Assembly (NCBI GenBank): GCA_024958655.1
Contig: JANWUR010000015.1
Location: 1 to 64,000 of the forward strand
Source of the DNA: Cyanobium sp. FGCU6
GTDB taxonomy: Bacteria; Cyanobacteriota; Cyanobacteriia; PCC-6307; Cyanobiaceae
DNA: 64,000 bases
Reading direction: 5' to 3'
The translations under genes were made by a program, and so were the position numbers. The stretch's first letter is position 1. Every line of letters begins with the position of its first letter. The notes below the pieces were generated by a model. That model made no database searches, had not been told where the DNA came from, and saw nothing but the letters and a program-made list of their open reading frames with translations. This document shows positions 4,536-44,128 of this stretch, in pieces.

Positions 4536-6848
4536 TCAGTACCAGGTGCGGGGCAGGGACCCCTGAAGGGTACGATTGACGAAATTCTGGTATCGGCCCC
4601 TGGAATCTGCGATCTGTGCCTGCAGTCGAGCCTGGTAGTGGAACACGGGATCACCCGCTGAATCCCGAGAGGAACTCAGCGCCGTGTGGGTGGTGCATCG
4701 AATCTTCCATACCCTCCCGTCCACTTCGCGTTCCATAGTGGTAACCATGGAGGTCTGGCCACGATGGGAGAGGGGATCGGCGGGGTCGATGGAGAAGATT
4801 TCCTGGCTCACTTGCTCCACCAGGAGATCCTGCAGGAGCCCTTGGTAAAGCACAGCTCCGGCGTCCTTGGACTTCTCCACGCGGATGCGTGGCCCGGCTG
4901 GCGTTTGCACGGTCTCCAAACGGCGCAGCTGATCGCCAGGCCGGCGGGTCACCGTCGGAACGTGCAGGTTTGGATCGATACAGGTGATCGCGCTCTCGGG
5001 GGAGAGCAGGGAGGCCATGGCCCCATCCTGTTGGCGGGGCACTCGTCGCGGCAGGACCAGCGCGGCGATGGGGAAGGAGTCCAGGGGGCCAGTGGTCAGC
5101 GTCAGCACCGCCAAGTCCGGTGGGGTCCAGAGCACTGGGAATAAGGATGTCGACAAGGCGAGACGCAGGGTCCAGCCCTTGCGAAAGGTGTGTCCGATGA
5201 CATTTAAGGGAATGCGCACGGAAAACACTTCTCCTGGTTTCAAGCGTTCCGGCTGGGCCATGTCGCCGGATCGAAAACAAAGATTGAAGAATCGATAACT
5301 CACCAATCGGGACGCCCTGCTGCGGGGACTGACCTCGCAGAGGCGTAGCACCAGCACGGCTTTGGGCACATCCGAAGCCAGCGTGAGCACCACGCTGGGA
5401 AAACCGAACACATCCAGATCTTCCTCCAGGGGCAGGCTGTCAAAGGTGAGGGAATCACGGTCGGCCTCCCTTTGGTCCCCTGGTAGATCGTCGTCATCTG
5501 AGCGACCCCAGGATCCGTTCTCCAGCATGGTGGTGGCCACCACGATCCGGCGTGGCGTTTGCAGGGTGGCGGCCTGGGCGGGAGGCTCGGCCAACAACCG
5601 GCCCGAGGCCGAGAGATGGAGGAGCAATGGCTGGCTGCGCTCTGGCCAATGACCGTCCTCCGCAACCCAGCGTCCTGAATCGGATGTGGCGGGCGAGCGA
5701 TCCGGTTCGCGGGAGCTGCCGAGCCAGACCGTGAAGGGTGGCCAAGGGGTGCCGGCGGGCGGTGGTTGTTCCTTCTACCATCGATCCCACCAATGGTGGA
5801 GAAGATGGGGGAGCCAGTCGATCCGTGGGCCTGGGTAGCCGGTGTTGGGGGAGGCGTGGCCCCATGCCCCCAGTAAGGCTTCAACAGGTTTGCCAGCCGC
5901 CGTGAGGCCCGCCATGACGTGGGCGACGGGATTGCTGTAGCCTATATCGCAATAGCCGGAAACGATATTCACAGGCACTTTGACCTTGGCATACAGATCA
6001 CGGACGCTGGTCTGACTCCAATAGGCATCGCGGGTGGGATGGCTGGCCCAGGTAGCGAACCAAAACTCAGCCTGATTCAATCGTTCACGCCACATCGTCT
6101 GCCATTGATCACCAACGACCAGGGGATCTGGCGGCTGGGTCAACCAGCCCCACATCAGGGAGGCCCAATCGAACTGGTCCTGCATCATGGCGCCATTCAT
6201 GGTGTGCACATCGTCGCTGTAGCGATCATCGGTGCCACTTACGATCAATACCGCCTTCAGAGCCTTCGGGCAATCATCCCGGGCCGCCACCATCAAAGAA
6301 TTGATCGCACTCCACGACCAGCCGAGCATGCCCACCTTGCCATTGCACAGGCGATGGGCCGCTAACTGTTTGATAACTTCCACACACGAATCTAACTCTT
6401 CTTGTGTGTATTCATCCCTGAGGACGCCATCTGAATCGCCGCTGCCCTGAAGATCCACACGGCAACACAAATAGCCGTGGTAGGCAAACCAAGGGTAAAA
6501 ATCACTATCGCCCAGCAGCATGCCATCCCGTCTTCGATAGGGATTCAGTTCAACCAGGGCCGGGAGTTTCTCCCCCTCTGCCACTGCTTTGCTGGAGATC
6601 CAATAGTGGCCTTGCAACCGCAGGGGTGGCTTCCCTTTCGGGTGAATCGTGAAGCTGATGGGTTCTGGATCAGGCACCTCTGCGCGTACGGGGAAACAGG
6701 TCGTCTCCCGTGGAGGCCCTTCCCTGGAGCGGGCGGGGAGGATCCGGGTCGAGAGCATGGCCCCCGCCAGCCAGAGAAAGCCTCGCCGGCTGATCAACAA
6801 CTGCCGCTCAACCGCCGACCAGCGTTGATGACCGCGTGAATGAGCCAT
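4536..6848 (-). pseudogene. CocE/NonD-type (X-Pro dipeptidyl-peptidase-like) hydrolase split by an in-frame amber codon
   Basis: Two open segments lie in the same frame and are separated only by TAG at 5775-5777. The upstream segment (357 codons) starts with a Tat-type signal (SRRGFLWL at about 20-27) and contains the alpha/beta-hydrolase core: the nucleophile motif GWSWS (S178), an aspartate in NIVSGYCDIG, and a histidine in LGAWGHASP. It ends HHWWDRW, then the stop, then KEQPPPAG without loss of frame. The downstream segment carries the jelly-roll galactose-binding-like domain typical of CocE/NonD esterases and S15 peptidases. About 770 codons in total. Upstream of the stop the core would still be made, but the C-terminal domain would be lost unless the codon is read through or is an assembly error. 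It sits alone between degenerate insertion sequences. The specific substrate is unknown. Confidence 0.82.
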
Positions 6849-30285: not shown

Positions 30286-32166
30286 ATGACCCTCCTCCCC
30301 GCCCAGACGGCCTGGCTGGTCCCGCTTTATCCCCTGCTGGCGTCGCTGCTTTCGATGCTGTGGTCGCCGGGGCTGATCTCCCGCACCGGGCCACGCCCCT
30401 GCGGCTACCTCAACCTCAGCCTCGCGAGCGTGGCCTTCCTGCACAGTGCGGCGGCCCTGATCGCTCTTCACTCCAATTCCGCCGCCGGATCGGCGGCCAT
30501 CTACCGACCGCTCACTTTCGGCTGGACCTGGCTCGAAACCGCCGGCCTCCGGGTGGGCTTCGACGGCCTGATCACCGAACCGGCCCTGATTGCGATGACC
30601 GTGATCACCGGCTTGCACGTTCTGGTGCAGATCTTCGCCATCGGCTATCTGGAGATGGATTGGGGCTGGCCCCGCTTCTTCGGCTCCCTGAGCTTCTTCG
30701 AAGCCGGCCTCTGTGCCCTGGTGCTCACGGATTCGCTGTTCTTCAGCTACGTGATCCTGGAGTTGCTCACGGTTGGCACCTACCTGATCGTCGGCACCTG
30801 GTACAACCAGCCCCTGGTGGTGAAGGGCGCGAGGGATGCCTTCCTCACCAAGCGGATCGGCGACCTCATCCTGCTGGCTGGCGTGATCGCCCTGCTGCCG
30901 ATCACCGGCACCTGGAACTTCCACGGTCTGCAGGCCTGGGCTGCCGACCAGGCCAACAATCAGTTTCCGCTGCCGGCAGGCTTCAGCCTGATCGTTCTTG
31001 CCCTGATTGCCGGTCCCATGGGTAAATGCGCCCAGATTCCCCTTCACCTCTGGCTGGATGAGGCCATGGAGGGCCCCCTCCCTTCCACCGTCCTGCGCAA
31101 CTCTGTGGTGGTGGTCGGAGGGGCCTGGGTGCTGCTGCGCCTGCTGCCGCTGATCGAGCTGGTCCCCCTGGTGCAGACGGTGCTCGTGATCGTGGGCGGC
31201 ACCTCCGCCGTCGTCGGCGCCGTCATCGCCCTCGCCCAGATCGACATCAAGCGTGCTCTCTCCTTCCTCGTGACCAGCTGGATGGGCCTGCTGTTCGTGG
31301 CGGTGGGCCTCGGAGGCATCAGCGTGGCCGATCACCTGATGCTGGTGTATCCCCTGCCCATGGCGTTGATGCTGATGGTGATCGGGGCCATCGTGATCAC
31401 CAACGTCACCCAGGACCTCACCCAGCTCGGTGGCCTCTGGAGCAAGCGACCGCTGATGGGCCTGGCTTTTCTCACCGGCGCCGCCGGTCTGATGGCCCTG
31501 CCGCCGTTCGGTGGCTTCGCCGCCCTCCGCGAGCTCCTGGCCCTGACGGCCGCCAGCTCTCACCCCTTCCTGCTGGGCAGTCTGGTGCTGTTCACCAATG
31601 CCCTGATCAGTGCCGGCCTGATCCGCGTGTTCGGCCTGATCTTCTGCGGTCCCCCCTCGGTGTTCACCACCCGCTCTCCGGAGGTGCTGTGGTTGATGGC
31701 CCTGCCCACCCTCGTGCTGATGGGCCTGGCGCTGCACCTCCCCCAGCTGCTGGTGATCAACGGGGTCTTCGCCCTCTCCCCCCTGCCGGGGTGGGGACCA
31801 CTGGCGATTCCCCTGCTGATCTCCACCTTCGTGGGTGGTGGCCTGTCCGCCGTGTTCTATCTGAGGCCCCATCCCCTGGCCCACCTGCCGGCAGCGCTCG
31901 GCGGCCTCCAGGACTGGCTCGCCCACGACATGCAGACGGAGCGCTTTTACCACCGTACGATCGTGGCGCTTGTGCTGGCGTTGGCCGGCCTCAGCCGTTG
32001 GTCTGAACAGCGGCTCATTGATGGCTTCAGTGGTGGCACAGGGGTTGCTGCGATGGCCGGTGCCCGCAGGCTCAGCCTCACCACTTCAGGGCGATCCCAG
32101 GCCTATGCCCTCACCCTGGTGCTGGCGATCCTGCTGATGACGGCCTGGTTGCTCTCGGGCCGTTGA
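30286..32166 (+). CDS. ndhF3: NDH-1 subunit F of a CO2-uptake complex (NdhF3/F4 type)
   Basis: 626 residues with about 16 hydrophobic segments. Family sequences are visible: YVILELLTVGTYLIVGTW, then KGARDAFLTKRIGDLILLAGV, the quinone/proton-channel loop GPMGKCAQIPLHLWLDEAMEGP and ALAQIDIKRALSFLVTSW. The divergent C-terminus, shorter than in respiratory NdhF1, fits the CO2-uptake forms. Together with ndhD, the cup gene and the fasciclin gene downstream it forms the NDH-1MS-type complex that hydrates CO2 in the thylakoid-facing cytosol while pumping protons. The F3 versus F4 label is by synteny with ndhF3-ndhD3-cupA-cupS and is not certain. ATG 30286. Confidence 0.85.
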   Translation: MTLLPAQTAWLVPLYPLLASLLSMLWSPGLISRTGPRPCGYLNLSLASVAFLHSAAALIALHSNSAAGSAAIYRPLTFGWTWLETAGLRVGFDGLITEPALIAMTVITGLHVLVQIFAIGYLEMDWGWPRFFGSLSFFEAGLCALVLTDSLFFSYVILELLTVGTYLIVGTWYNQPLVVKGARDAFLTKRIGDLILLAGVIALLPITGTWNFHGLQAWAADQANNQFPLPAGFSLIVLALIAGPMGKCAQIPLHLWLDEAMEGPLPSTVLRNSVVVVGGAWVLLRLLPLIELVPLVQTVLVIVGGTSAVVGAVIALAQIDIKRALSFLVTSWMGLLFVAVGLGGISVADHLMLVYPLPMALMLMVIGAIVITNVTQDLTQLGGLWSKRPLMGLAFLTGAAGLMALPPFGGFAALRELLALTAASSHPFLLGSLVLFTNALISAGLIRVFGLIFCGPPSVFTTRSPEVLWLMALPTLVLMGLALHLPQLLVINGVFALSPLPGWGPLAIPLLISTFVGGGLSAVFYLRPHPLAHLPAALGGLQDWLAHDMQTERFYHRTIVALVLALAGLSRWSEQRLIDGFSGGTGVAAMAGARRLSLTTSGRSQAYALTLVLAILLMTAWLLSGR

Positions 32167-32271: not shown

Positions 32272-33729
32272 TTGGCTGACCGTCCGCCAAGCCCTGTTTC
32301 ATCCCTGAGACGCGTCGCTGCCGGGCTGCGAGCGCTGCTAACGGCGTTATGGCGTCCGGATACGGTGCTCTGGCTTCTGCTGGCGTCCCTGCTGCTCCTC
32401 CCCCTGGTGATGGTGAACGCCATCTCGGGGGCCACGGTGGCCCAGATGAAGATGCAGGCGGCAGAGATCGCCAGCCTGGCCACCGATATCCGCTCCTACT
32501 ACGCCGACAACGTGATTGCACGCCTGCAGGCCGCTGATGGCAAGGCTGTGTACAGCGAAAACTATCGCCAGGTCCATGGCGGGATTCCGATTCCTGCCAC
32601 CCTTTCCATCGAACTTGGAGCCCTGTTCGACAATGCCCATCGCGATGGCCGTATCTCCTATGAGTTCCTCTCCGACTACCCCTTCGCCAAACGGGTAGCG
32701 AAGCCGCTCGATGATTTCGAAACCGAAGCGATCCGAGCCTTCCGCACCAACCCTTCTCGTACCACCTTCACCCAGCTCACGGGCAACGGTCTGGGGCGCT
32801 CCGCCTACCGACTGGCCACTCCGGTGATCATGCGCCGGGCCTGTGTGACCTGCCACAACGCCCATCCCGATTCTCCCAAGCGCGATTGGAAGGTGGGTGA
32901 TATCCGTGGCATTCAGGAGGTCACGGTGAGGGGTCTGCAGGTGAACAGCTTTGGCAGACTTGGCAACATGTTTGGTTATATCAGTGTTCTGGGCATCCTC
33001 TCGGTCGCGGCTGCAGGTGTGTTCCAGCGTCAGAGCCGCAAGCTTGAGCGGATCAACGAGAAACTCAGCATCGTTCACACGCGCGAATCCGATCTGGCGG
33101 CGCGCATGAGCGATCAGGTGGAGGAGCTGGCTCTGTTTGGCACAGCGGTCGACAACTCCATCGTTGGTATTGCCATCGCCGATATGCGCAAGCCCGACAG
33201 TCCGCTGGTGTATGTCAATAATGCCTTCACCCAGATCACTGGCTATTCCAGAGACCTGGCTGTTGGCTTCAATTGTCGTTTCCTGCAGGGACCCGATACG
33301 GACCCCAACGAGATTCAAAAGATTCGCAAGGCTTTAGATCAAGGCCAGGCTTATACCGGCGAGTTATTGAATTACCGCCACGATGGCAGCCGCTTCTGGA
33401 ATCGCCTCACACTCTCGCCCGTGGGTGGTAGCGCAGGCAAGCCCGACTTCTTTGTGGCCAACCAGGTGGATGTCACCCAGCTCAGGCAGGAGCGGGGGGT
33501 TCCAGTGGAGGCTCTCACAGCCCTTGCCGGCAATCTGGAGGCCGCTCGTTCAGCGCTTGCCGATGCCAGACGCTTTGCGGAAGCCCTCGATCAGCTTCTA
33601 CGCAGGACGGATCACTGGACCGTCGAGCCTGAGGCCTATCTGCGTTCCGAGGAACAGGCGCACCAGCACCTCGACGACCGGCTGGCGCAGATCTCCGGAG
33701 TGCTCGATCGCTACAACCAGGGACCCTGA
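32272..33729 (+). CDS. Membrane sensor with a Tll0287-like c-type haem domain and a LOV photosensor domain
   Basis: 485 residues from a TTG at 32272. TM1 at about 31-50, then an extracytoplasmic Tll0287-like (DUF3365) domain to about 230 with a c-type haem motif CVTCH at 191-195, TM2 at 231-251, and a coiled linker. A PAS domain spanning 285-405 carries the LOV signature GFNCRFLQG (332-340), in which C335 would form the photo-adduct with flavin. It also has the typical strands (LLNYRHDGSRFWNRLTLSPV, FFVANQVDVT). The last 80 residues are helical with no output domain. I infer a redox or gas plus blue-light sensor. The diguanylate-cyclase gene follows after two bases, so it is probably the output partner. 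Confidence 0.8.
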   Translation: MADRPPSPVSSLRRVAAGLRALLTALWRPDTVLWLLLASLLLLPLVMVNAISGATVAQMKMQAAEIASLATDIRSYYADNVIARLQAADGKAVYSENYRQVHGGIPIPATLSIELGALFDNAHRDGRISYEFLSDYPFAKRVAKPLDDFETEAIRAFRTNPSRTTFTQLTGNGLGRSAYRLATPVIMRRACVTCHNAHPDSPKRDWKVGDIRGIQEVTVRGLQVNSFGRLGNMFGYISVLGILSVAAAGVFQRQSRKLERINEKLSIVHTRESDLAARMSDQVEELALFGTAVDNSIVGIAIADMRKPDSPLVYVNNAFTQITGYSRDLAVGFNCRFLQGPDTDPNEIQKIRKALDQGQAYTGELLNYRHDGSRFWNRLTLSPVGGSAGKPDFFVANQVDVTQLRQERGVPVEALTALAGNLEAARSALADARRFAEALDQLLRRTDHWTVEPEAYLRSEEQAHQHLDDRLAQISGVLDRYNQGP

Positions 33730-33731
33730 TC

Positions 33732-34952
33732 GTGCCACCCGCATCCCTTCGTCAATCGTTCCGTCACGTGCGCCAGTTGCTGCTCTCGTACTGGCTGGGC
33801 TGCAGCCTGTTGATTCTCTTGATGGTGACGCTCTACGACCTCTGGGAGCACCGCAATCAGATCGTGCGGGAGGGTGAGCATGCCGCCCATGTGGTGGAGT
33901 CCAGTCTGCGCATCCCGATGACGCACCGGCAGCGCCAGAATCTGCTCGAGGCCTATGGTCTGACGAATCAGACTCAGCGCTTCGATGATCGGATCAATCT
34001 GCTGCTTGTGATCGATCGCACCGGCAGGATTGCCTACTCATCCCGTCCTACATGGCAATCGCTGCTCATCAGTGATCCACTGTTTGATCAAATGGCAGTC
34101 GACGACCCTGATTTCACAGCTGTCGTTCGCTGCTTCCGCAGCACCGCCAGCGATTGTATGGAGTTGCGCAGCGAGGACTTGCATCTGCATCTGCGCGGCA
34201 ACTCAGTGGTGCGCCCGATCTGGATGCCGTCAACGGATCTTGGCCTGCCGAGGCAGCCGTTTCTGGTGCTGGTGAATTTCGATTCCGGCATGTTGATCAA
34301 CGACGTTCTTCAGGATCTCCCCAGGCTGGTTTTTTTCTCGGCCCTGGTTGCCATGCTGCTCGCTGCGGCACTTTGGCTGGTCATCTCCAGCAGGATGTTG
34401 CCCCAGTTGCTCAAGGCAAGCCAGACCGACGACCTTACCCAGCTGATGAACCGCACCAGTTTCATGGATCTGGCGATGGAACAGCTTGCCGAAGCCGAGG
34501 AACGCCAGGCCGAGCTTGTGTTTGCCATTCTTGACATCGATCATTTCAAGCGAATCAACGACACCTACGGCCATGGCTGCGGCGATGCCGCCCTGGCCTC
34601 TGCGGGTTCGTTGCTGCGCACCGTCACCAGACCTGAGGATCTGGTCTGTCGGTTTGGCGGGGAGGAATTCGCACTGCTGATCGCTACCTCTCAACAGGAG
34701 GCCAACAAGGCGCTGGAGCGGCTGCGCCTGCAGCTGGAGATGAATACCCTGCGCTACAACACTCACCGCATAGCCCTCACGGTGAGCATTGGCGCCGCCG
34801 CTACCGCGCGATGCGGCTATAATCTTGATTATCTCTACAATGCTGCCGACAAAGCTCTTTATGCTGCTAAGGGCGCTGGCCGAAATCGGGTTCAATGGAA
34901 CATGGGAGAGTTGATCAGCCGCCTGTCCCCCTCCTCGGCAACAGGCCACTGA
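33732..34952 (+). CDS. Membrane diguanylate cyclase (GGEEF) with an extracytoplasmic sensor segment
   Basis: 406 residues from a GTG at 33732, two bases after the haem/LOV gene stop. TM1 about 16-37, an extracytoplasmic region of about 150 residues (38-195) with no named family, TM2 about 197-219, then a complete GGDEF domain. The active site is GGEEF at 309-313, preceded by RxxD (R300-D303), the product-inhibition I-site. Substrate-binding sequences LDIDHFKRINDTYGH are intact. It should make c-di-GMP. It sits between the haem/LOV sensor and a GAF-EAL protein in what looks like one transcript. Confidence 0.88.
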   Translation: MPPASLRQSFRHVRQLLLSYWLGCSLLILLMVTLYDLWEHRNQIVREGEHAAHVVESSLRIPMTHRQRQNLLEAYGLTNQTQRFDDRINLLLVIDRTGRIAYSSRPTWQSLLISDPLFDQMAVDDPDFTAVVRCFRSTASDCMELRSEDLHLHLRGNSVVRPIWMPSTDLGLPRQPFLVLVNFDSGMLINDVLQDLPRLVFFSALVAMLLAAALWLVISSRMLPQLLKASQTDDLTQLMNRTSFMDLAMEQLAEAEERQAELVFAILDIDHFKRINDTYGHGCGDAALASAGSLLRTVTRPEDLVCRFGGEEFALLIATSQQEANKALERLRLQLEMNTLRYNTHRIALTVSIGAAATARCGYNLDYLYNAADKALYAAKGAGRNRVQWNMGELISRLSPSSATGH

Positions 34953-34957
34953 AGGCA

Positions 34958-36910
34958 ATGCAACCACCACGCATTCCTGACGATGAAGCAGACCGGCTGC
35001 AACAACTGGCAAGCTATGGCGTACTGGATACGGTGGCCGATCCAAACTTCGACGATATCAGTGAGCTCGCCCGTTTCCTTGCGGGAACTGAGATAGGCAT
35101 GATCAGTCTGGTCGACAGTGATCGGCAGTGGTTCAAGAGTTGTGTGGGTGCATCCCTTGGTCAGAAGCAAACACCACGTGACATCTCCTTCTGCGGCCAT
35201 ACGATCCTTCAACGTGAACCGCTGATCATCAACGACGCCCTTGAGGATCCTCGCTTTGCGGACAACCCACTTGTCGTGGGTGACCCCTTCTTGCGCTTTT
35301 ATGCCGGCTTTCCCCTGATCAGCCCCAATGGCTTCGTGGTGGGCAGCCTGTGCGCGATCAGCACGCGGCCCCATCAGCTCACGGATGGCCAGATCGATGG
35401 CCTGAAGCGTCTGGCCGGACTCGCGGTCTTGCAGTTGGAACATCTCCGGGAATCCGCCCTCCTGTCCACCGGTGTACAGGCCATCGAGGTGGAGAGGTTG
35501 TCCAGCATGACCAGCAACCGGCTCAGTTCGTTGGACCGCCTGATCAACCGTGATCAGATGGTGCAGATGCTGGAACTGATGTTTGGCATGAGTCTTGACT
35601 CTCGCTTCTCCCTGCTGCGATGCTGCTTTCGTGATTATGAACGGGTGAATTCAAATCTTGGTGGAATCGTCGCCGAGGAATATATGAATGAGGCGGCTCG
35701 ACGGGTGCTGGCAGCCGTGCCACGCTCAGCATCAGTGGCTCGTTTTGCGGATGCTGAATTTGTGGTGTTGCTTCCCTTCACGGTGCAGCAGGATGAAGTG
35801 CAGAAAGTTGCGGAACGGATTCTTGCCTTTGCTAGTCATATCTACCGCAGTGGCAGCCAGTCGCTGCCGATGACGCTGTCGATTGGTGTTGCTGTCCATG
35901 AGCAGAACTATGCGGGATCGGAGGAGATGCTCGCTGACACCAGCATGGCCGTGCGCCTGGCTCGTCGCTCCAGCGGCAACGCTTTCCGCTTCATCGACCA
36001 GGAGTCGCGGGCTGCAGCTCGCGCAAGCTATCGACTCGAGTCGGATTTCCATGAGGCCCTGGCCGCCAGAGAACTTGAACCCTTCTTTCAGCCGATTGTC
36101 GATCTTGCGAGCGGTGAGCCGTTCGGATTCGAGGCGCTCGCGCGCTGGCGGCATCGGAATCAGTGGTTGGAGCCTGCCACGTTCATCCCCATTGCCACCG
36201 AGTGCGGTCTCACCGGGGAGCTGGATCTGCTGATCATCGAGAAGGCGCTGGCGGCCATGCCGCTGCTCGCCCAGCCGGTGCCGGGACTCCCGCTGACTCT
36301 GAGCCTCAACGTTTCCGGCATTCTGCTCGAGGAGCCGGAGTCGCGACGGCGTCTGCTCGGCCTGATCGACGACAACCCCCGCCCGCCGGCCTGGAGGTTG
36401 CAGGTCGAACTGGTGGAAGATATTTTCCAGGATACGAGCAGTGAATTCACCTGTTTCCTTCGTGACCTTGTCGAACGTAATGTTGCTGTCGCCATCGACG
36501 ACTTTGGAACAGGCTATTCATCTCTGGCCCGCCTGATCTCCCTCCCGATCAAGACAGTGAAAGTCGATCGTGCCTTTGTATGCAAACTCGCTGATTCGGA
36601 TGATTTACCACGAACACTGCTGCGAACCATGTTCACCATGATTCGTGATCTCAACCTCGACATCACCGCCGAGGGGGTGGAAACCGAGCAGCAGCGGGCG
36701 TGGTTGGTGAATAATGGCGTTTCCGCGGGCCAGGGTTATCTGTTTTCTCCGCCGATGGCCATCGGTGACACCATCAGCCTTCTTCAGCAGCTTGATTACC
36801 GCCCGCGGGCGCTTCCCGTTGATCCAGGTCGCATCAGGGCCGGCGGCCGCCGCCGCCTTGGCTCCCTGTTCCGGCTGCCGTTTCAGGCCAGGCGTCGCCG
36901 CAGCGACTGA
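34958..36910 (+). CDS. GAF / degenerate GGDEF / EAL phosphodiesterase-type protein
   Basis: 650 residues from the ATG at 34958; an ATG at 34895 would overlap the previous gene by 58 bases. GAF domain at about 25-160. GGDEF-like domain at about 180-350, with RFADAEF (262-268) in place of the RxGGDEF signature, so cyclase activity is unlikely. EAL domain at about 375-615 with FEALARW (391-397), N451 in LNVSG, E484, DDFGTGYSS (514-522), K535 and D537, E572 in TAEGVET, and QGYLFSPP. The EAL site looks complete, so it should hydrolyse c-di-GMP, with the GAF domain as input. No membrane segment: cytosolic. It ends the signalling cassette before ndhD. Confidence 0.88.
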   Translation: MQPPRIPDDEADRLQQLASYGVLDTVADPNFDDISELARFLAGTEIGMISLVDSDRQWFKSCVGASLGQKQTPRDISFCGHTILQREPLIINDALEDPRFADNPLVVGDPFLRFYAGFPLISPNGFVVGSLCAISTRPHQLTDGQIDGLKRLAGLAVLQLEHLRESALLSTGVQAIEVERLSSMTSNRLSSLDRLINRDQMVQMLELMFGMSLDSRFSLLRCCFRDYERVNSNLGGIVAEEYMNEAARRVLAAVPRSASVARFADAEFVVLLPFTVQQDEVQKVAERILAFASHIYRSGSQSLPMTLSIGVAVHEQNYAGSEEMLADTSMAVRLARRSSGNAFRFIDQESRAAARASYRLESDFHEALAARELEPFFQPIVDLASGEPFGFEALARWRHRNQWLEPATFIPIATECGLTGELDLLIIEKALAAMPLLAQPVPGLPLTLSLNVSGILLEEPESRRRLLGLIDDNPRPPAWRLQVELVEDIFQDTSSEFTCFLRDLVERNVAVAIDDFGTGYSSLARLISLPIKTVKVDRAFVCKLADSDDLPRTLLRTMFTMIRDLNLDITAEGVETEQQRAWLVNNGVSAGQGYLFSPPMAIGDTISLLQQLDYRPRALPVDPGRIRAGGRRRLGSLFRLPFQARRRRSD

Positions 36911-37072: not shown

Positions 37073-38626
37073 ATGCCTCCGTTCACCCTGCTGTTCCTGC
37101 TGATCCCACCGCTGCTCGGCGTCCTTCTGGTGCAGCTGGTTTCAGCCGAGCGTCCCACGCTTGTGAGAGCCCTGGCGGTGGTCGGCCCCGCCGTGCAGCT
37201 GCTGCTCGCCCTGCTCTGCTGGCGCCTGCCAACCCCCGCCCTGCACCTGAGCTGGTTGCCGAAGCTCGGTCTGAGTTTCGACCTTGCCCTCGATGGTCTC
37301 TCGCTGCCGCTGCTTCTGCTGACCGCGCTGATCACCGCTCTGGCCATTCTCGCGTCACCGGCGGACCAGAGCCGCCCCCGCCTGTTCCATTCCCTGCTGC
37401 TCGCCACCAATCTGGGGGTCGCCGGGGCCTTTCTTGCCCGCAACGGGCTGCTCTTCCTGTTCTGCTTTGAGCTGGTGCTGATCCCCACCACGTTGCTGGT
37501 GGCCATCTGGGGTGGGGCGAATCGGGCTTCCGCTGCGATCCGCTTCATCATGTATGGCGCGGTTTCCGGACTCACCCTGCTGGCCGCGGTGCTGTCCCTG
37601 GGCTGGTACGGCACCGGGGGCTTCAACCTCAGCTACGCCTCGCTTGCAGCCTCCGCCCTGCCCCCTTCCGCGCAAGGGGCGATCCTGCTGTTGTTGCTGC
37701 TGGCGTTCGGTCTCAAGCTGCCGGTATTCCCCCTGCATGGCTGGCAGCCTCTCACCTACGCCGAGGCTCCCATACCGGTGGTGATGATGCTCGGAGGGGT
37801 GGTGTCCAAGCTGGGGGCCTACGGGCTTCTGCGCTTCGGGGTTGGCTTCCTTCCCGACGCCTGGACCGCCTGGTCGCCCTGGATCGCCGCCGCCGGCGCC
37901 ATCAGCGCCGTCTATGGCGCCCTCAATGCCATTGCCCAGAGCGACATCCGCCGGCTGATGGCCTACAGCTCCCTCGGCCACATGGGCCTGCTGGTGCTGG
38001 GGCTCTCCGCCGCCACCCCCCTGAGCCTGCAGGGGGCGGTGGCTCAGATGCTGGCCCACGGCATGATCGTGGCCCTGTTATTCGCCTGCGTGGGGCTGAT
38101 CGAACGCAAGACGGGCACCACCGCCATCCCCGAGCTCTCCGGCCTGATGAATCCGCTGCGGGGCCTCCCCTTCACCATGGGCATGCTGCTGCTGGCGATG
38201 ATGGCCGCCGCCGGCATCCCCGGCCTGGCAGGTTTCCCTGCGGAGCTGCTGGTGTTCGAGGGAAGCTGGACCACCTTTCCCCGCGCCACGCTGGTGAGCC
38301 TGATCGCCTCAGGCTTCACCGCCGTCTATGCCATCCGTCTGTTCAACAGGGTGGGCTTCGGCCGTCTTGACAACGACCGTGCCGACTGGACGTCCACCTG
38401 CTGGAGCGAACGGGCCCCGGCCATGGCGCTCACCCTGCTGGTGATCGGTGCGGGCCTCTGGCCCACGGCCCTCACGGGCTGGAGCGAGACCGAATCCACC
38501 GATCTGGCTGTGCGCTCCCAGCCGTTCCTCAGCAGCGCCGTCCCCTCGCCCGAAACCCTCGCCGCTTCCGGTTCCACCCTCGTCGCCGCCACCCTCCCTG
38601 CCACCTCGGAGCTGCGCACCTCATGA
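37073..38626 (+). CDS. ndhD3: NDH-1 subunit D of a CO2-uptake complex (NdhD3/D4 type)
   Basis: 517 residues, about 14 hydrophobic segments. Proton-channel features are present: LLFLFCFELVLIPTTLLVAIWG, GLKLPVFPLHGWQPLTYAEAPIPVVMMLGG and NAIAQSDIRRLMAYSSLGHMG. This is the membrane-arm subunit that pairs with NdhF in the CO2-hydrating NDH-1 complex. Its last codon overlaps the start of the cup gene (ATGA, 38623-38626), so translation is coupled. It is separated from ndhF by the three-gene signalling cassette and an untranslated gap of 162 bases, which could hold its own promoter. Confidence 0.88.
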   Translation: MPPFTLLFLLIPPLLGVLLVQLVSAERPTLVRALAVVGPAVQLLLALLCWRLPTPALHLSWLPKLGLSFDLALDGLSLPLLLLTALITALAILASPADQSRPRLFHSLLLATNLGVAGAFLARNGLLFLFCFELVLIPTTLLVAIWGGANRASAAIRFIMYGAVSGLTLLAAVLSLGWYGTGGFNLSYASLAASALPPSAQGAILLLLLLAFGLKLPVFPLHGWQPLTYAEAPIPVVMMLGGVVSKLGAYGLLRFGVGFLPDAWTAWSPWIAAAGAISAVYGALNAIAQSDIRRLMAYSSLGHMGLLVLGLSAATPLSLQGAVAQMLAHGMIVALLFACVGLIERKTGTTAIPELSGLMNPLRGLPFTMGMLLLAMMAAAGIPGLAGFPAELLVFEGSWTTFPRATLVSLIASGFTAVYAIRLFNRVGFGRLDNDRADWTSTCWSERAPAMALTLLVIGAGLWPTALTGWSETESTDLAVRSQPFLSSAVPSPETLAASGSTLVAATLPATSELRTS

Positions 38627-39933
38627 CACCTCCCACCGCCACGGCCCCCGAGCCCGTCGCCGCGCCTCTGATCCCGCCCTCCAGCCATCGCTATGCCGAT
38701 GTGATCCATCGCCTGGAGGCGGGCGGCTCGATGCTGCCGGACACGCCGGAGAATCTGATGCAGATCATCGGCATCTACAAGGCCTATGCCGTGCCGATGG
38801 ACTTCTACTGGCGCGACCTGCTCTACATCGCCGAGCAGGTGTTCCTCGATCCTCTGCCGGCCTTCAAGTACTTCCCCAGCCAGGAGTATCTCGATCTTCC
38901 CAACTCCTACGCCGGTGATCAGTCTAAGCTGCGCATCTGGCGCGGCGGTGAAAAGGCCCATCCCGAACTCCTGGAGTTCATGGAGAAGGGTGAAACCGGC
39001 AAGATGTCGAAGCTGCTGCATCACCTGTGGCACGACCGCATCAACATGGAGTTCGCCGAGGCCTGCATGGAGGCCATGCTCTGGCATCAGGGCATGGGCG
39101 GACGCTTCTATGACTATCTCGACAGCGACGCCTATCGCGCCAATGCCGACCGGGCGATCAAGGCCTACTTCCGCGGCAATCCGCTGATGCTGGGGCTGTA
39201 TGCGCTGTTCCCTGAGATGTTCATGGAGCAGGTGAAGAAGATGAGCTATTACGCCAATCTCGGCCTGTTCTGGGAGGTGATGGCGCCTGTGTTCTTCGAG
39301 ATGAGCGACATCTACGACGAGGGCGGCTTCAAGGGCGTTCCGGACGCCATGAACTTCCTGGTGAACGGTATCTTCGCGGTGGCAGGCCGGCCGATCTATC
39401 ACCACGTGTTCATCAGGGGGGAGTGTTTCGAGGTCATTCCCAAGAGTGAAGGCTTCACCTGGCTTTATGAGGCGGCTCTGCCCTACGTGGAAGCCGTGTT
39501 CTATCGCACAGCGCCGTTCCGCGGCACCAAGAGCTACAACGCCCAGGCCTACCAGGTGCCCGCCGATCAGGCCGATTTCCACTACGGCATTCTCTATGCC
39601 GACGTGTTCCCGGTGGGTTCGGCCGGCATTCCTCCCACCCTGCTGATGCAGGACATGCTGCATTTTCTCCCCCCCTATCTGGAGGATCTCTACAAGCAGC
39701 ACAAGCGTGGCGAGGAGGACAAGCTCATCCAGCTGGGCATCACCTTCCAGCGCTCGATGTACAACGTCACCTCGGCGGTGATCCAGGCCCTGCGCTGCGC
39801 CCTGCTCTATCCGCTCGATGACACCGATCCCGAGCACCTGATGGCCAACCGCCGCTTCTTCGAAGCCCAGATGGACCGGTTCCTGCGGCCGGAAGCCCGT
39901 CTGCCCCAGATCCAGACCCAGGACTACCGCTGA
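38623..39933 (+). CDS. cupA: CO2 hydration protein (CupA/ChpX-type subunit of NDH-1MS)
   Basis: 436 residues. The recognisable family segment runs from HRYADVIHRLEAGGSMLPDTPENL through FKYFPSQEYLDLPNSYAGDQSKLRIWRGGEKAHPELLEF to DMLHFLPPYLEDLYKQHK. Cup proteins cap the distal end of the NDH-1 membrane arm and carry a metal site for vectorial conversion of CO2 to bicarbonate. The start overlaps ndhD by four bases. Length is closer to CupA than to the shorter CupB-type proteins, and the downstream fasciclin gene also points to CupA. The A versus B/X name is inferred. Confidence 0.85.
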   Translation: MTPPTATAPEPVAAPLIPPSSHRYADVIHRLEAGGSMLPDTPENLMQIIGIYKAYAVPMDFYWRDLLYIAEQVFLDPLPAFKYFPSQEYLDLPNSYAGDQSKLRIWRGGEKAHPELLEFMEKGETGKMSKLLHHLWHDRINMEFAEACMEAMLWHQGMGGRFYDYLDSDAYRANADRAIKAYFRGNPLMLGLYALFPEMFMEQVKKMSYYANLGLFWEVMAPVFFEMSDIYDEGGFKGVPDAMNFLVNGIFAVAGRPIYHHVFIRGECFEVIPKSEGFTWLYEAALPYVEAVFYRTAPFRGTKSYNAQAYQVPADQADFHYGILYADVFPVGSAGIPPTLLMQDMLHFLPPYLEDLYKQHKRGEEDKLIQLGITFQRSMYNVTSAVIQALRCALLYPLDDTDPEHLMANRRFFEAQMDRFLRPEARLPQIQTQDYR

Positions 39934-39955: not shown

Positions 39956-40357
39956 ATGGCCACCATCATCGAAACCGCGCAGGGAGCGGGCTGCTTCGCC
40001 ACCCTGCTCACCGCCGTGGAGGTGGCGGGCCTCACCGCTGCCCTCGAGGGGCCGGGCCCCTTCACGGTGTTCGCTCCCGTCGACGACGCCTTCGCTGCCC
40101 TGCCCCCCGGCACGGTGCAGACCCTGGTCGACAACCCGCCCCAGCTGGCGCGCATCCTCAAGTTCCACGTGCTCGCCGGCGCCCACACCCGCAGCGAGCT
40201 GGTGACCCAGCCGGAATGGTCGAGCCTGGAGGGCGCGCCTGTGGCCATCCGGCGGGCGGACCCCTTCGAGGTGAAGAACGCCACCGTCGTGAGCGCCGAC
40301 ATCGCCTGCGACAACGGCGTTGTTCATGTGATCGATCGGGTGATCCTGCCCGGCTGA
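39956..40357 (+). CDS. cupS: Fasciclin-domain protein (CupS-like)
   Basis: 133 residues making one fasciclin (FAS1) domain: TAGFATLLTAVE-type start (ETAQGAGCFATLLTAVEVAG), GPFTVFAPVDDAFAALP, and the final H-box with NGVVHVIDRVILPG. No signal peptide, unlike surface fasciclins, fitting the soluble CupS subunit of the NDH-1MS complex. It starts 22 bases after the cup gene on the same strand. Gene order ndhD-cupA-cupS matches the inducible high-affinity CO2-uptake cluster known from other cyanobacteria. Confidence 0.85.
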   Translation: MATIIETAQGAGCFATLLTAVEVAGLTAALEGPGPFTVFAPVDDAFAALPPGTVQTLVDNPPQLARILKFHVLAGAHTRSELVTQPEWSSLEGAPVAIRRADPFEVKNATVVSADIACDNGVVHVIDRVILPG

Positions 40358-40429: not shown

Positions 40430-41905
40430 ATGGGGAGAATGCCGTTGAGGGCTGCCCGCCGCCACAACATCCTGGCAAGCTTCGGCGCCCTGATGCTGGC
40501 CGGTCTGGTGGGCATCGCGCTGATCAGCTTTCTGCGGGCCCGCGATCTGCTCCACCGACAGATCAGCGGCACCACGCTGCCGCTCACCTCCGACACCATC
40601 TATGCCGGGGTCGAGAACGACCTGCTCCAGCCGGTTCTCGCCTCAGGCCTCATGGCCCGCAACACCCTGCTGGCCGACAAGCTGGCCCGCGGTGAAGCCG
40701 ATCCCGATCGGATCGCGGCCTACCTGCGTGGCGTGCAGGAGCGCACCGGAGCGGTCACGGCCTTTCTCGTCTCCGACCGCACCCGCAGCTACCACCACCC
40801 GAGCGGCGTTCTCAAGCAGGTCTCGCCAGACGATCCCCAGGATCGTTGGTATTTCCGCTTCCGCGACTCCGGGCGGACGTTCGAGATCAACATCGACCGC
40901 GACACGGCCGATCTGCAGCGCACCACAGCCTTCATCAATGTGCGGCTGCTCGATGCCGACGGCCGCTTCCTTGGGGTTGTGGGCCTGGGGCTGGACATCC
41001 GCTCGCTGATGGCCCAGCTGCAGCGCTACCAGCAGCGCTACGGCGGTCGGATTCTGCTGGTCGACCAGCAGGGGCGGATCAAGCTGGCCGCTGACCGAAC
41101 GACCGGCAGCCTGGACGACATCGTGGGCCTGGCCCCTCACCGACGGCGGATCCTCTCGGCCCCTTCCACAGCCCTGCATCTCGAGCGCATCGGCCGGACC
41201 TCCTACGTCAGCAGTCGCCGCATCCCCGAACTCGACTGGGTGCTGGTGGTCCAGCAGACGAGCAGCCTCGCCCTGCGCCAGCTGGAGAACCTGCTCGCTC
41301 AGAATCTGATCGCCGCGGTGCTGATCAGCCTGGTGCTGCTGTCACTGGCCCAGCTCACGGTGGGGAGGCAGCAGCGTGAGCTGGAGCGACTCGCCAGCAC
41401 CGACAGCCTCACCGGCCTGCTCAACCGTTCCGCCTTCGAGCCCCTGTTCCAGCACCATGTCGCTGAGACCCGCCACCGCCGCGAACCCCTGGCGGTGGCC
41501 CTGATTGACATCGATCGCTTCAAGCAGGTCAATGATCACTACGGTCATCCCCAGGGCGATGATGTGATCTGTCAGTTAGGTCGCCGGATCGTGCAGCACA
41601 TCCGCCCCGTGGATCTGCTGTTCCGCTGGGGCGGTGAGGAATTCCTGCTGCTGCTGCCGGGCTGCGCCCTTCCCCGGGCCAGGGACCTGCTCGAGCGGCT
41701 CCGCAGCGATCTGCACGATCAGCCCGTCGCCCTGCCTGAGCGGACATCCCTGCCACCGTTCCCCGACCAGCTCCTGCCCGTGACGATCAGCATCGGTCTG
41801 AGCGTCCACCGATCAGAGGAATCCAGTGCGGAGCTGCTGCAGAGGGTCGATGAGGCCCTTTACAGCGCCAAGCGCGGCGGGCGTGACCGCCTCTGCATCG
41901 CATGA
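40430..41905 (+). CDS. Membrane diguanylate cyclase with a dCACHE-like sensor
   Basis: 491 residues; ATG 40430 (an in-frame ATG at 40439 is the alternative). TM1 about 12-35, an extracytoplasmic double-CACHE-like domain at about 45-280 (RTGAVTAFLVSDRTRSYHH, DRWYFRFRDSGRTFEINI, RFLGVVGLGLDIRSL), TM2 about 285-310, then a GGDEF domain with DIDRFKQVNDHYGH and an active RWGGEEF. CACHE domains usually bind small metabolites such as amino acids. Its stop overlaps the start of an amino-acid binding lipoprotein gene (ATGA), which suggests coupled expression with the transporter downstream. Confidence 0.88.
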   Translation: MGRMPLRAARRHNILASFGALMLAGLVGIALISFLRARDLLHRQISGTTLPLTSDTIYAGVENDLLQPVLASGLMARNTLLADKLARGEADPDRIAAYLRGVQERTGAVTAFLVSDRTRSYHHPSGVLKQVSPDDPQDRWYFRFRDSGRTFEINIDRDTADLQRTTAFINVRLLDADGRFLGVVGLGLDIRSLMAQLQRYQQRYGGRILLVDQQGRIKLAADRTTGSLDDIVGLAPHRRRILSAPSTALHLERIGRTSYVSSRRIPELDWVLVVQQTSSLALRQLENLLAQNLIAAVLISLVLLSLAQLTVGRQQRELERLASTDSLTGLLNRSAFEPLFQHHVAETRHRREPLAVALIDIDRFKQVNDHYGHPQGDDVICQLGRRIVQHIRPVDLLFRWGGEEFLLLLPGCALPRARDLLERLRSDLHDQPVALPERTSLPPFPDQLLPVTISIGLSVHRSEESSAELLQRVDEALYSAKRGGRDRLCIA

Positions 41906-42987
41906 GTTCACCTCGAACCGCCACTTCTCCGCGTCGCTGCTGCCGCAGGCTCCTTGCAGCGCTCGGTGTTGGTCTGCTGGTGGCGGGCTGCCGTCCCGAG
42001 GCGGTCGGACCGCAGAGCCCCACCATCGCCAGGATCCGCCAGCGGGGCCGGCTGATCTGTGCTGTGGATGGGGCCGTGCCGGGCTTCAGCACCGTGGCCT
42101 CCTCCGGCCGCTACGAGGGCATCGACGCCGACTTCTGCCGGGCTGTGGCAGCCGCGCTGCTCGGCGATCCGGAGAAGGTCGACTTCCGCCCGGTCACCCC
42201 GGCGGAGCGCTTTGTGGCGCTGAACAGCGGCGAGGTGGATCTGCTCTCGATCAGCTCCACCCACACCCTCTCGCGCGATGCAGCGGGGGGCAATGCCCTC
42301 AGCTTCGGGCCCACCTTCTTCCATGACGGCCAGGGGGTGATGGTGCCGGCCGCTTCGGGCGTGCGCCGCCTCGCCGATCTGGCGGGCAAGCCGATCTGCG
42401 TGGAGAGCGGCACCAACACCGAGCTCAACCTGGCCGACCGCATGCGCGAGCTGGGCCTGCCCTATCAGCCCCTGCGCTTCCAGTCGGGGGAACAGGCCTA
42501 TCCGGCCTACGAACAGGGGCGCTGCGCGGCGATCACCAGCGACCGTTCCCTGCTGGCGGGCAAGCGCACCGGCTTCCGCAACCCCTCCGCCCACGTGCTG
42601 CTGCCGGAGTTGTTGAGCAAGGAGCCCAGCGCCAAGGTCACGGTGCAGGGCGATCCGGTGTGGGCCGATGCCATCCGCTGGATCACCTACGCGCTGTTCC
42701 AGGCCGAGGAGAGCGGCCTCACCCGCGCCACGGTCGCCGCCCGGGTGGCGGAGGCCCGGGCCCGGCCGGAGCAGGCGGAGCTGCGCCGGCTGCTGGGGGT
42801 GGAGGGGGATCTGGGCCGCCAGCTCGGGCTGCCCAACGATTTCGTGGTGCGGGTGGTGAAGGCCGTGGGCTCCTACGGCGAGCTGTTCGATCGCCATGTG
42901 GGTCCCGCAACCCCGCTCGCCCTCGATCGGGGTCCCAATCGCCTCTGGACCCGGGGCGGCCTCCACTTCGCCCCCCCTTTCCGCTGA
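41902..42987 (+). CDS. Amino-acid ABC transporter substrate-binding lipoprotein (first of two)
   Basis: 361 residues. Lipoprotein signal with lipobox LLVAGC near residue 30. The mature part is a periplasmic binding protein of the polar/general amino-acid (AapJ/BztA) type: RGRLICAVDGAVPGFSTV, GRYEGIDADFCRAVAAALLGD, DLLSISSTHTLSRDAAGG and ICVESGTNTELNLADRMRE. It is closely related to the next gene, so the pair arose by tandem duplication. One difference is SSTHT where the second copy and family members have RNTTMT-type sequence, so binding preference may differ. The start overlaps the upstream cyclase gene by four bases. Confidence 0.88.
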   Translation: MSSPRTATSPRRCCRRLLAALGVGLLVAGCRPEAVGPQSPTIARIRQRGRLICAVDGAVPGFSTVASSGRYEGIDADFCRAVAAALLGDPEKVDFRPVTPAERFVALNSGEVDLLSISSTHTLSRDAAGGNALSFGPTFFHDGQGVMVPAASGVRRLADLAGKPICVESGTNTELNLADRMRELGLPYQPLRFQSGEQAYPAYEQGRCAAITSDRSLLAGKRTGFRNPSAHVLLPELLSKEPSAKVTVQGDPVWADAIRWITYALFQAEESGLTRATVAARVAEARARPEQAELRRLLGVEGDLGRQLGLPNDFVVRVVKAVGSYGELFDRHVGPATPLALDRGPNRLWTRGGLHFAPPFR

Positions 42988-43066
42988 GGCCGCCCGGCGC
43001 TGCGACCCGCCAGGCAGCGCGGATGGCGCACACCTGCAACAATGCGGCCACCTTCAGAATCCCCGG

Positions 43067-44128
43067 ATGTCACGCCACTGGATCAGCGCTCTGCCGGTCT
43101 CCCTGCTCGGCCTGGGCCTGCTCGCCGGCTGCGCCCCTGACGGTGGCGGCGTGCAGAGCACAAAAATGGCCGCGATCCAGGGCCGCGGCAAGCTGATCTG
43201 CGGTGTGGAGGGCAAGCTCCCCGGCTTCAGCTTTGTGCTCCCCTCCGGCCAGTACTCCGGGCTCGACGTTGATGTGTGCAAGGCGGTGGCGGCCGCGGTG
43301 CTGGGGGATCCCAGCAAGGTGGAATACCGCGACCTCAACTCCAGCGAGCGATTCGCCGCCCTGGCCAGCGGCGAGGTGGATCTGCTCTCGCGCAACACCA
43401 CCATGACCCTCAGCCGCGATGCGGCCGGTGGCAACGGCCTCAGCTTCGCCCCCACCACCTTCTATGACGGCCAGGGGGTGCTGGTGCCCGTGGCCAGTGG
43501 GATCACCGATCTCAAGGGACTGGCCGGCAAGCCGATCTGCGTGGAGAGCGGCACCACCACCGAGCTGAACCTGGCGGACCGGATGCGCGAGCAGAACATC
43601 CCCTACACGCCGCTGAAGTTCCAGACCAGCGACCAGACCTTCGCCGCTTATCTCGGCGGCCGCTGCGTCGCCGTCACCAGTGACCGCTCCCAGCTGGCGG
43701 GTAAGCGCACCAGCTTCCCCAAGCCGGATGAGCACACCCTCCTGCCCGATGTGATGAGCAAGGAGCCGCTCACTCCGGCCACCACCAATGCCGATCCCGC
43801 CTGGGCCGATGCGGTGCGCTGGATCGTCAACGGGCTGTTTCAGGCCGAGGAGAGCGGCATCACCCAGGCCAACATCGACGCCAAGGTGGCCGAGGCCAAG
43901 GCCAGCGCCAACCAGGCCGACCTGCGCCGCTTCCTCGGCGTGGAGGGCGATTTCGGCAAGCAGCTCGGGCTCCCCGCCGACTTCGTGGTCAAGGCGGTGA
44001 AGGCCGCCGGCAACTACGGCGAGATCTTCGATCGCAACGTCGGCCCGAAATCAGCCCTCAAGCTCGATCGCGGCCTCAACCGGCAGTGGAAGGACGGTGG
44101 CCTGATCTACTCGCCGCCCTTCCGCTGA
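43067..44128 (+). CDS. aapJ: Amino-acid ABC transporter substrate-binding lipoprotein (AapJ/BztA type)
   Basis: 353 residues from the ATG at 43067. Lipobox LLAGC around residue 21. Family core: GRGKLICGVEGKLPGFSFV, DLLSRNTTMTLSRDAAGGNGLSFAP, and ICVESGTTTELNLADRM. The binding protein delivers polar or general L-amino acids (glutamate, glutamine, aspartate class) to the permease pair downstream. Its stop shares one base with the permease start (TGATG). It is the copy with the more typical motif and is directly attached to the permeases. Confidence 0.9.
   Translation: MSRHWISALPVSLLGLGLLAGCAPDGGGVQSTKMAAIQGRGKLICGVEGKLPGFSFVLPSGQYSGLDVDVCKAVAAAVLGDPSKVEYRDLNSSERFAALASGEVDLLSRNTTMTLSRDAAGGNGLSFAPTTFYDGQGVLVPVASGITDLKGLAGKPICVESGTTTELNLADRMREQNIPYTPLKFQTSDQTFAAYLGGRCVAVTSDRSQLAGKRTSFPKPDEHTLLPDVMSKEPLTPATTNADPAWADAVRWIVNGLFQAEESGITQANIDAKVAEAKASANQADLRRFLGVEGDFGKQLGLPADFVVKAVKAAGNYGEIFDRNVGPKSALKLDRGLNRQWKDGGLIYSPPFR

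Follow-up and report, generated by a model that had tools for sequence, protein, structure and literature searches.

The cyanobacterium Cyanobium sp. FGCU6 encodes a membrane protein that combines a haem domain of the Tll0287 type with a LOV domain, carries no recognised output domain, and is followed by the genes of a diguanylate cyclase and a probable phosphodiesterase in a conserved three-gene cassette. The most economical reading of this association is a receptor for two inputs that controls c-di-GMP enzymes in trans, and we consider it fairly likely that the protein is a transmembrane dual sensor, in which a haem ligand or redox state, on the one hand, and blue light, on the other, control the c-di-GMP output of the neighbouring genes. 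The domain identities, the key residues, the hydropathy topology, the absence of a recognised output domain, and the conservation of the cassette are established by the data below. The window is the whole stretch of 64,000 nucleotides that was analysed (contig JANWUR010000015.1 of assembly GCA_024958655.1, positions 1 to 64,000 of the forward strand), and its relevant features are listed in Table 1.

Table 1. Sensor, cassette, and neighbouring genes in the window, with the basis of each assignment.
Feature	Position	Strand	Basis
ndhF3-family gene, upstream	30286..32166	+	TIGR01960 over cut-off
Haem-LOV sensor protein, 485 aa, without output domain	32272..33729	+	ORF, Pfam/NCBIfam; 18-member family
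Membrane segment 1, residues 33-51	32368..32424	+	hydropathy
Tll0287-like / sCache_heme domain, residues 57-219	32440..32928	+	Pfam PF11845
CVTCH haem c attachment motif, residues 191-195 (predicted)	32842..32856	+	CxxCH in 18/18
Membrane segment 2, residues 233-251	32968..33024	+	hydropathy
LOV domain, residues 288-406 (PAS_9 306-403)	33133..33489	+	Pfam, PDB matches, fold match
Adduct cysteine C335 (predicted)	33274..33276	+	C in 18/18
Two C-terminal helices (412-445, 451-482) without a known domain	33505..33717	+	structure model
Membrane diguanylate cyclase with GGEEF, RxxD I-site, and C134 and C142 in its extracytoplasmic domain	33732..34952	+	
GAF / degenerate GGDEF (ADAEF) / EAL protein, probable phosphodiesterase	34958..36910	+	domains, motifs
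Downstream ndhD-type gene, assigned to ndhD3 from its position	37073..38626	+	TIGR01972 over cut-off
ChpXY (CO2 hydration protein), assigned to cupA from its position	38623..39933	+	TIGR01964 over cut-off
Fasciclin-domain gene at the cupS position	39956..40357	+	Pfam PF02469

Architecture of the sensor

The sensor gene is an uninterrupted ORF with a TTG start, whose context (TTG GCT GA) is common to the window and to the orthologue in genome G020. A first-pass annotation, made from the sequence alone, had proposed an extracytoplasmic Tll0287-like domain with a CVTCH motif, followed by a cytosolic LOV domain, and both domains score far above the Pfam cut-offs, with 75.5 bits for PF11845 (now sCache_heme; cut-off 24.1) and 72.1 bits for PAS_9 (cut-off 27). 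The two strongest hydrophobic peaks of the chain flank the haem domain, so that the CVTCH motif is predicted to be extracytoplasmic and the LOV domain to lie inside; a weaker third peak (residues 286-304, 1.41) coincides with the beginning of LOV. Neither Pfam nor NCBIfam recognised any domain after LOV, and the structure model has two helices there, which bears out the proposal of a purely helical C-terminus without output. The sensor is thus neither a LOV-GGDEF-EAL fusion of the SL2 type, with output domains within the chain, nor a short LOV protein of the RsLOV type, which is soluble and made of LOV and flanking helices only, its LOV domain being preceded by the haem domain and two membrane segments.

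Two of the observations that count against our preferred explanation concern the structure of the chain. First, the structure model, built from 18 homologues (mean pLDDT 75.9), has a pTM of 0.42, at which the arrangement of the domains is unreliable. Second, the C-terminal helices, the likely contact with a partner, are missing in locus L131 and different in L054. L131 (7051-8298) is a third, very diverged sensor copy in genome G529 (branch 2.6), which stops just past LOV, without the helical tail, and still has the cyclase next to it.

The haem domain

The sensor presumably binds haem covalently: C191, C194, and H195 are unchanged in the 18 sensor homologues, and the genome encodes ResB, for haem c attachment. 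The fold of the domain is of the Cache type (sCache_heme) and not PAS, according to the available text of the preprint PMC12889525. A PDB search with the single sequence of the domain gave no match, a 12-row profile matched only the C-terminal half of 5b82 (E 0.0004), and a HAMP-bearing homologue matched HAMP structures only. The sensor is the sole PF11845 match of its own genome. The haem domain alone is common, with PF11845 in 231 of the 388 sampled genomes of the class, a share that exceeds the ~30% of Cyanobacteriota given in PMC12889525, the two samples being different.

The sixth haem ligand of Tll0287 is a cysteine (PMC12889525). In eight stand-alone homologues (191-241 aa), the cysteine of a VCxPVG motif aligns with P106 of the sensor, in a stretch of low identity; in the precursor L164 this cysteine is Cys68. 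The latter presumably corresponds to Cys46 of mature Tll0287. All 18 sensors have a proline at P106 and hence, as far as this low-identity alignment goes, no axial cysteine, as in the NO-binding signalling group, with which the column would place them rather than with the cytochrome-like group. In the preprint, a signalling protein lacking the axial cysteine has an NO koff of about 6e-4 per s, a cysteine-bearing stand-alone protein releases NO much faster, and neither of the tested proteins gave a stable O2 complex (PMC12889525, available text). By analogy, the haem of the sensor may be open to a ligand.

The LOV domain

The LOV part matches phototropin and bacterial LOV domains in the PDB, best of all LOV1 of the Chlamydomonas phototropin (2.3e-29), and has GFNCRFLQG with C335 where the first-pass annotation had placed it. 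The model shows a LOV fold (Z 18.7 and rmsd 3.0 over 137 residues with 9vf7_C; Z 18.1 and rmsd 1.8 over 121 residues with 6ph2_B), and the Foldseek alignments to RsLOV, with ~200 columns at rmsd 23-24, are too loose to be used. LOV chains took up the listed fold matches of the sensor model, as GGDEF structures did those of the cyclase model. Among 20 of the 27 PAS_9-matching loci of its own genome, the sensor alone has the motif G.NC[RHK][FL]L.

Aligned to CrLOV1, the window protein has N334, C335, R336, Q339, R352, N367, N377, and Q398, which we take to be the FMN contacts, R352 being that of the phosphate. The LOV domain would accordingly be expected to bind FMN and to undergo a photocycle. 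Six of these residues (N334, C335, R336, N367, N377, and Q398) are invariant in the 18 homologues, while the Q339 column has Q in 11, R in six, and H in one, and the R352 column has R in 13 and A or I in five. Because R352 is lost in five of 18 and Q339 changed in seven, some of the sensors may handle flavin differently, a further point against our preferred explanation. In a second clade (the sensors of L126-L130), R352 is lost and R replaces Q339; phosphate binding or dark recovery may change there.

Distribution and relatives

The haem-LOV sensor is present in some freshwater cyanobacteria and is not a one-off. A four-row profile (A1; E <= 1e-25, best three candidates at most per genome) matched 18 of 400 genomes of the same family; the matches extended over both domains in 15 genomes, with 18 loci, and over the haem domain only in the other three (G548, G524, and G511). 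A contig scan with two patterns special to the sensor family gave 12 loci, 11 of them with both domains, which we take as 11 of the 18: Cyanobium sp. Cruz CV13-4-11, CZS25K, FGCU52, and T1B-Tous, Synechococcus sp. GreenBA-s (two loci), Vulcanococcus limneticus LL, and four MAGs. The remaining locus, from a MAG labelled Akkermansia (L115), matched in the haem domain only. A chance occurrence of the motifs is ruled out, as every one of the 18 homologues, at identities down to 50%, retains CxxCH and, in NCR(F)L, the adduct cysteine.

The profile searches covered Cyanobacteriota. In the class-wide one (388 genomes, E <= 1e-30), A1 matched 91 genomes, with both domains in G000 and G020 only and one domain in the other 89; given that the best four candidates at most were taken per genome, these genomes may hold further haem-LOV fusions. 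The closest relatives of the haem domain that we examined end in Guanylate_cyc domains, all with PF11845 over the cut-off, and comprise four cyanobacterial proteins (L132, L140, L025, and L027) and three from alphaproteobacterial plasmids (Rhizobium, Pararhizobium, and Chelatococcus). The pairing with LOV looks like a domain exchange within the haem-domain family, as judged from these sequences.

Class III cyclases with sCache_heme lie on alphaproteobacterial plasmids at L173 3893-5485, L174 3860-5452, and L176 2390-3946. The haem domains of the two rhizobial ones among them are ~43% identical to that of the window, and the other cyanobacterial ones seen ~31-37%. In total, 386 plasmid records matched the sensor, none over 80% of the query among the 25 matches listed, of which the widest were two from Chelatococcus (65%), which join a haem domain to a cyclase and lack LOV, as checked for one of them. 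Five phage records matched, over the LOV part only, and 15 stretches of viral contigs matched a pattern, with no relative among them.

A cassette of three genes

The cyclase ORF begins with GTG two bases past the stop of the sensor, as had been noted earlier. Apart from L054, where the contig stops, each of the 17 readable loci has a GGDEF protein directly downstream of the sensor, at -31 to +13 bases from the sensor stop in the 16 loci where this was measured, with an overlap (-4) in seven of them. The cyclase is split over two frames in L119, and its start could not be placed in L130. Its GGEEF, the site of a diguanylate cyclase, is found in 17 of 17 and the RxxD I-site in 14 of 17; the cyclase model (mean pLDDT 86.7) reaches a Z of 26.5 against known GGDEF structures. 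C134 and C142 are invariant in the 17 cyclases and possibly form a disulfide. Because of these invariant extracytoplasmic cysteines, the cyclase may carry an input of its own.

A broken sensor-cyclase fusion is ruled out, since the two proteins are in separate reading frames in 17 of 17 readable loci; an ORF of 1030 aa in L130 crosses the sensor region in another frame and holds the cyclase only.

The third gene, absent from the first-pass annotation together with the ndhF3/ndhD3 setting, starts preferably at the ATG at 34958 rather than at the ORF start at 34895. Its product in the window carries EALARW, DDFGTG, KVD, and AEGVE, i.e., the EAL motif set. The GGDEF site is degenerate in the 15 readable cases (15/15) and the EAL motifs are kept, so that the protein is probably a phosphodiesterase. 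A GAF/GGDEF-EAL-type protein comes next on the same strand in 16 of 17 loci, including L122, whose contig holds just its first part. L131 has a convergent PAS-GGDEF-EAL gene instead, which we count against our preferred explanation. With a GGDEF neighbour in all readable loci and a same-strand EAL neighbour in all except one, the sensor, the cyclase, and the probable phosphodiesterase form a conserved three-gene cassette.

Genomes G529 and G579 have three and two copies of the sensor, each with its own cyclase beside it, and sensor identity rises and falls with cyclase identity (Spearman 0.86, from 136 non-independent pairs among 17 loci). The earlier suggestion that the downstream cyclase is the likely partner is thus strengthened by adjacency in every readable locus and in several genomic settings, and has to be amended in one respect: the output is probably that of the cyclase and the phosphodiesterase.

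Genomic setting

The gene order of the window and the fasciclin gene point to an ndhF3-ndhD3-cupA-cupS cluster that the cassette interrupts; a second ChpXY is encoded elsewhere in the genome. The main clade of the sensor tree (clade A) has 12 loci, of which 11 are assessable, L122 being too short to judge. Genes of the CO2-concentrating mechanism (CCM; ndhF3/ndhD3/cupA, sbtA) are in or beside the cassette in eight of the 11: 1) between ndhF3 and ndhD3 in the window, L052, and L120; 2) downstream of cupS in L054 and L121; 3) upstream of ndhF3 in L119; 4) beside sbtA, a BMC-domain gene, and ndhF3 in L118; and 5) beside sbtA and the same BMC-domain gene in L053, with no ndh gene in the stretch. 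NDH-1 genes adjoin the cassette in seven of the 11. The stretches of L123, L124, L125, and L126-L131 hold none of the tested CO2-concentrating proteins.

On the tree, the CCM label requires three changes vs 6.1 in shuffles, 6 of 500 of which are as low, so several of the eight loci share ancestry. A single old link followed by losses is possible, and gene linkage by itself does not prove a function. A common control by NdhR is reported for ndhF3/ndhD3/cupA, sbtA/B, and an antiporter (PMC13249358, available text).

Three further loci deserve mention. Right after the fasciclin gene, the window encodes a dCache-GGDEF protein and two SBP_bac_3 solute-binding proteins (40430-44128), possibly another c-di-GMP input next to this NDH-1 cluster. 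In L123, a gene with a PilZ domain (5569-6162), whose product could be a c-di-GMP receptor, is found ~1.25 kb away from the cassette. In L052 (10565-12444), the ndhF3 of G020 reads as two ORFs, from either a frame change or a sequencing error.

Proposed mechanism and alternatives

In the explanation that we prefer, the sensor would sit in the membrane as a receptor that uses two cofactors. The sCache_heme domain, placed either outside the cytoplasmic membrane or in the thylakoid lumen, would hold a covalently bound haem c whose sixth ligand is not a protein cysteine, and would respond to NO, to another haem ligand, or to redox state. Inside, the LOV domain would carry FMN and sense blue light via the adduct at C335. 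The two inputs would converge on the helical linker that connects the second membrane segment to LOV. Since it has no enzyme of its own, the sensor would act in trans on the neighbouring c-di-GMP enzymes, changing the activity of the downstream diguanylate cyclase and probably also that of the GAF-GGDEF-EAL phosphodiesterase, and so set the level of c-di-GMP. Cofactor binding, the photocycle, and physical contact with the partner are predictions of this explanation, in which light may either raise or lower c-di-GMP and one or both enzymes may be targets. A more specific version, which we hold to be rather doubtful, is a coincidence detector, in which one chain would read extracytoplasmic NO or redox state (haem c) together with cytosolic blue light (LOV), steer c-di-GMP through a dedicated cyclase and phosphodiesterase, and so tie the light and haem signals to the CO2-concentrating mechanism, among whose genes the cassette is repeatedly found.

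Three other explanations have to be weighed. The first has an appreciable chance of being right, if clearly the lesser one: the haem could be a redox sensor of the periplasm or thylakoid lumen to which LOV adds light, so that light is compared with the state of electron transport. The host is phototrophic, NDH-1 genes are adjacent in seven of the 11 assessable clade-A loci, and stand-alone sCache_heme members look redox-like in the available text of PMC12889525. Against this, all 18 sensors have proline where the redox-like group has its axial cysteine, and the redox-like cases of the preprint are stand-alone domains, whereas the sensor is fused to a signalling domain (PMC12889525, same text).

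It is unlikely, second, that the sensor acts on another partner, e.g., a kinase-like protein or an NDH-1 component, and that the genes merely travel together. The partnership with the cyclase is known from gene linkage alone, CCM genes are close in eight of the 11 clade-A loci, and the C-terminal helices loosely overlap the DHp helices of LOV kinases (4gcz, 277-480, rmsd 11.9), yet none of the 17 readable loci lacks the adjacent cyclase, even though other neighbours change, and the C-terminal helices have no family-wide histidine column (the best has 9 of 18). We reject a degenerate DHp for these helices, which have a loose structural overlap only and no histidine shared across the family.

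Third, LOV might be a flavin redox or structural module and haem alone signal, given that some sensors differ at R352 and Q339 and that redox-active flavin PAS9 domains are listed in the available part of PMC8846402. Against this very improbable reading, neither C335 nor any of five other polar contacts varies among the 18 homologues.

Relation to known systems

The sCache_heme domain, LOV, and the c-di-GMP enzymes are each known; the pairing and the proposed wiring in trans are new. In the open-access papers searched, we found no membrane chain with both haem c and LOV sensors, nor any characterised protein with this pairing, as the first-pass annotation had suspected. AppA of Rhodobacter sphaeroides resembles the sensor in uniting flavin-based light sensing and a haem/redox response in one protein, and differs from it in being a soluble BLUF protein with non-covalent haem that acts on a repressor.

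Other systems share one side each with the one described here. The sCache_heme signalling proteins, for which fusions to PAS, GGDEF/EAL, and other domains are listed, have in common with the sensor the Cache-type extracytoplasmic domain, CxxCH, and membrane segments, and the NO-binding protein of P. azotoformans likewise lacks the axial cysteine (PMC12889525); in the sensor, however, the cytosolic domain is a LOV photosensor without output domain, and we found no mention of LOV, or of blue light as signal, in the available text of that source. The sCache_heme class III cyclases of cyanobacteria and rhizobia, which have the closest haem domains among the matches listed (those on Rhizobium plasmids), differ in having a Guanylate_cyc domain where the sensor has LOV. 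Control of c-di-GMP by a cyanobacterial LOV domain is likewise seen in SL2 of Synechococcus elongatus (LOV-GGDEF-EAL; PMC8846402), which is a single soluble fused chain without haem, whereas the sensor is a membrane haem protein whose enzymes are in separate genes. PapB-PapA of Rhodopseudomonas palustris similarly has an output-less photoreceptor acting on a separate EAL protein, but PapB-PapA uses BLUF, is soluble, and has no haem and no cyclase (PMC8846402); Cph2 with Slr1143 gives a second precedent for a separate photoreceptor. DgcO-PdeO (DosC-DosP) of E. coli is likewise a haem-controlled cyclase-phosphodiesterase gene pair (PMC8846402), but with the haem inside the enzymes, O2 as the sensed ligand, and no light input. 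These comparisons with PMC8846402 refer to the available part of its text.

If our preferred explanation is true, the sensor would be a natural receptor that reads an outside signal by haem and inside light by flavin in one chain. It would offer a small testable system for two-cofactor integration and for an output-less LOV protein that drives separate c-di-GMP enzymes. According to the available text of a 2026 review (PMC13249358), SyCRP1, which regulates some CCM genes, is bound by a c-di-NMP receptor. That the cassette is linked to ndhF3/ndhD3/cupA and sbtA offers a concrete starting point for asking how light might control carbon uptake through c-di-GMP in picocyanobacteria.
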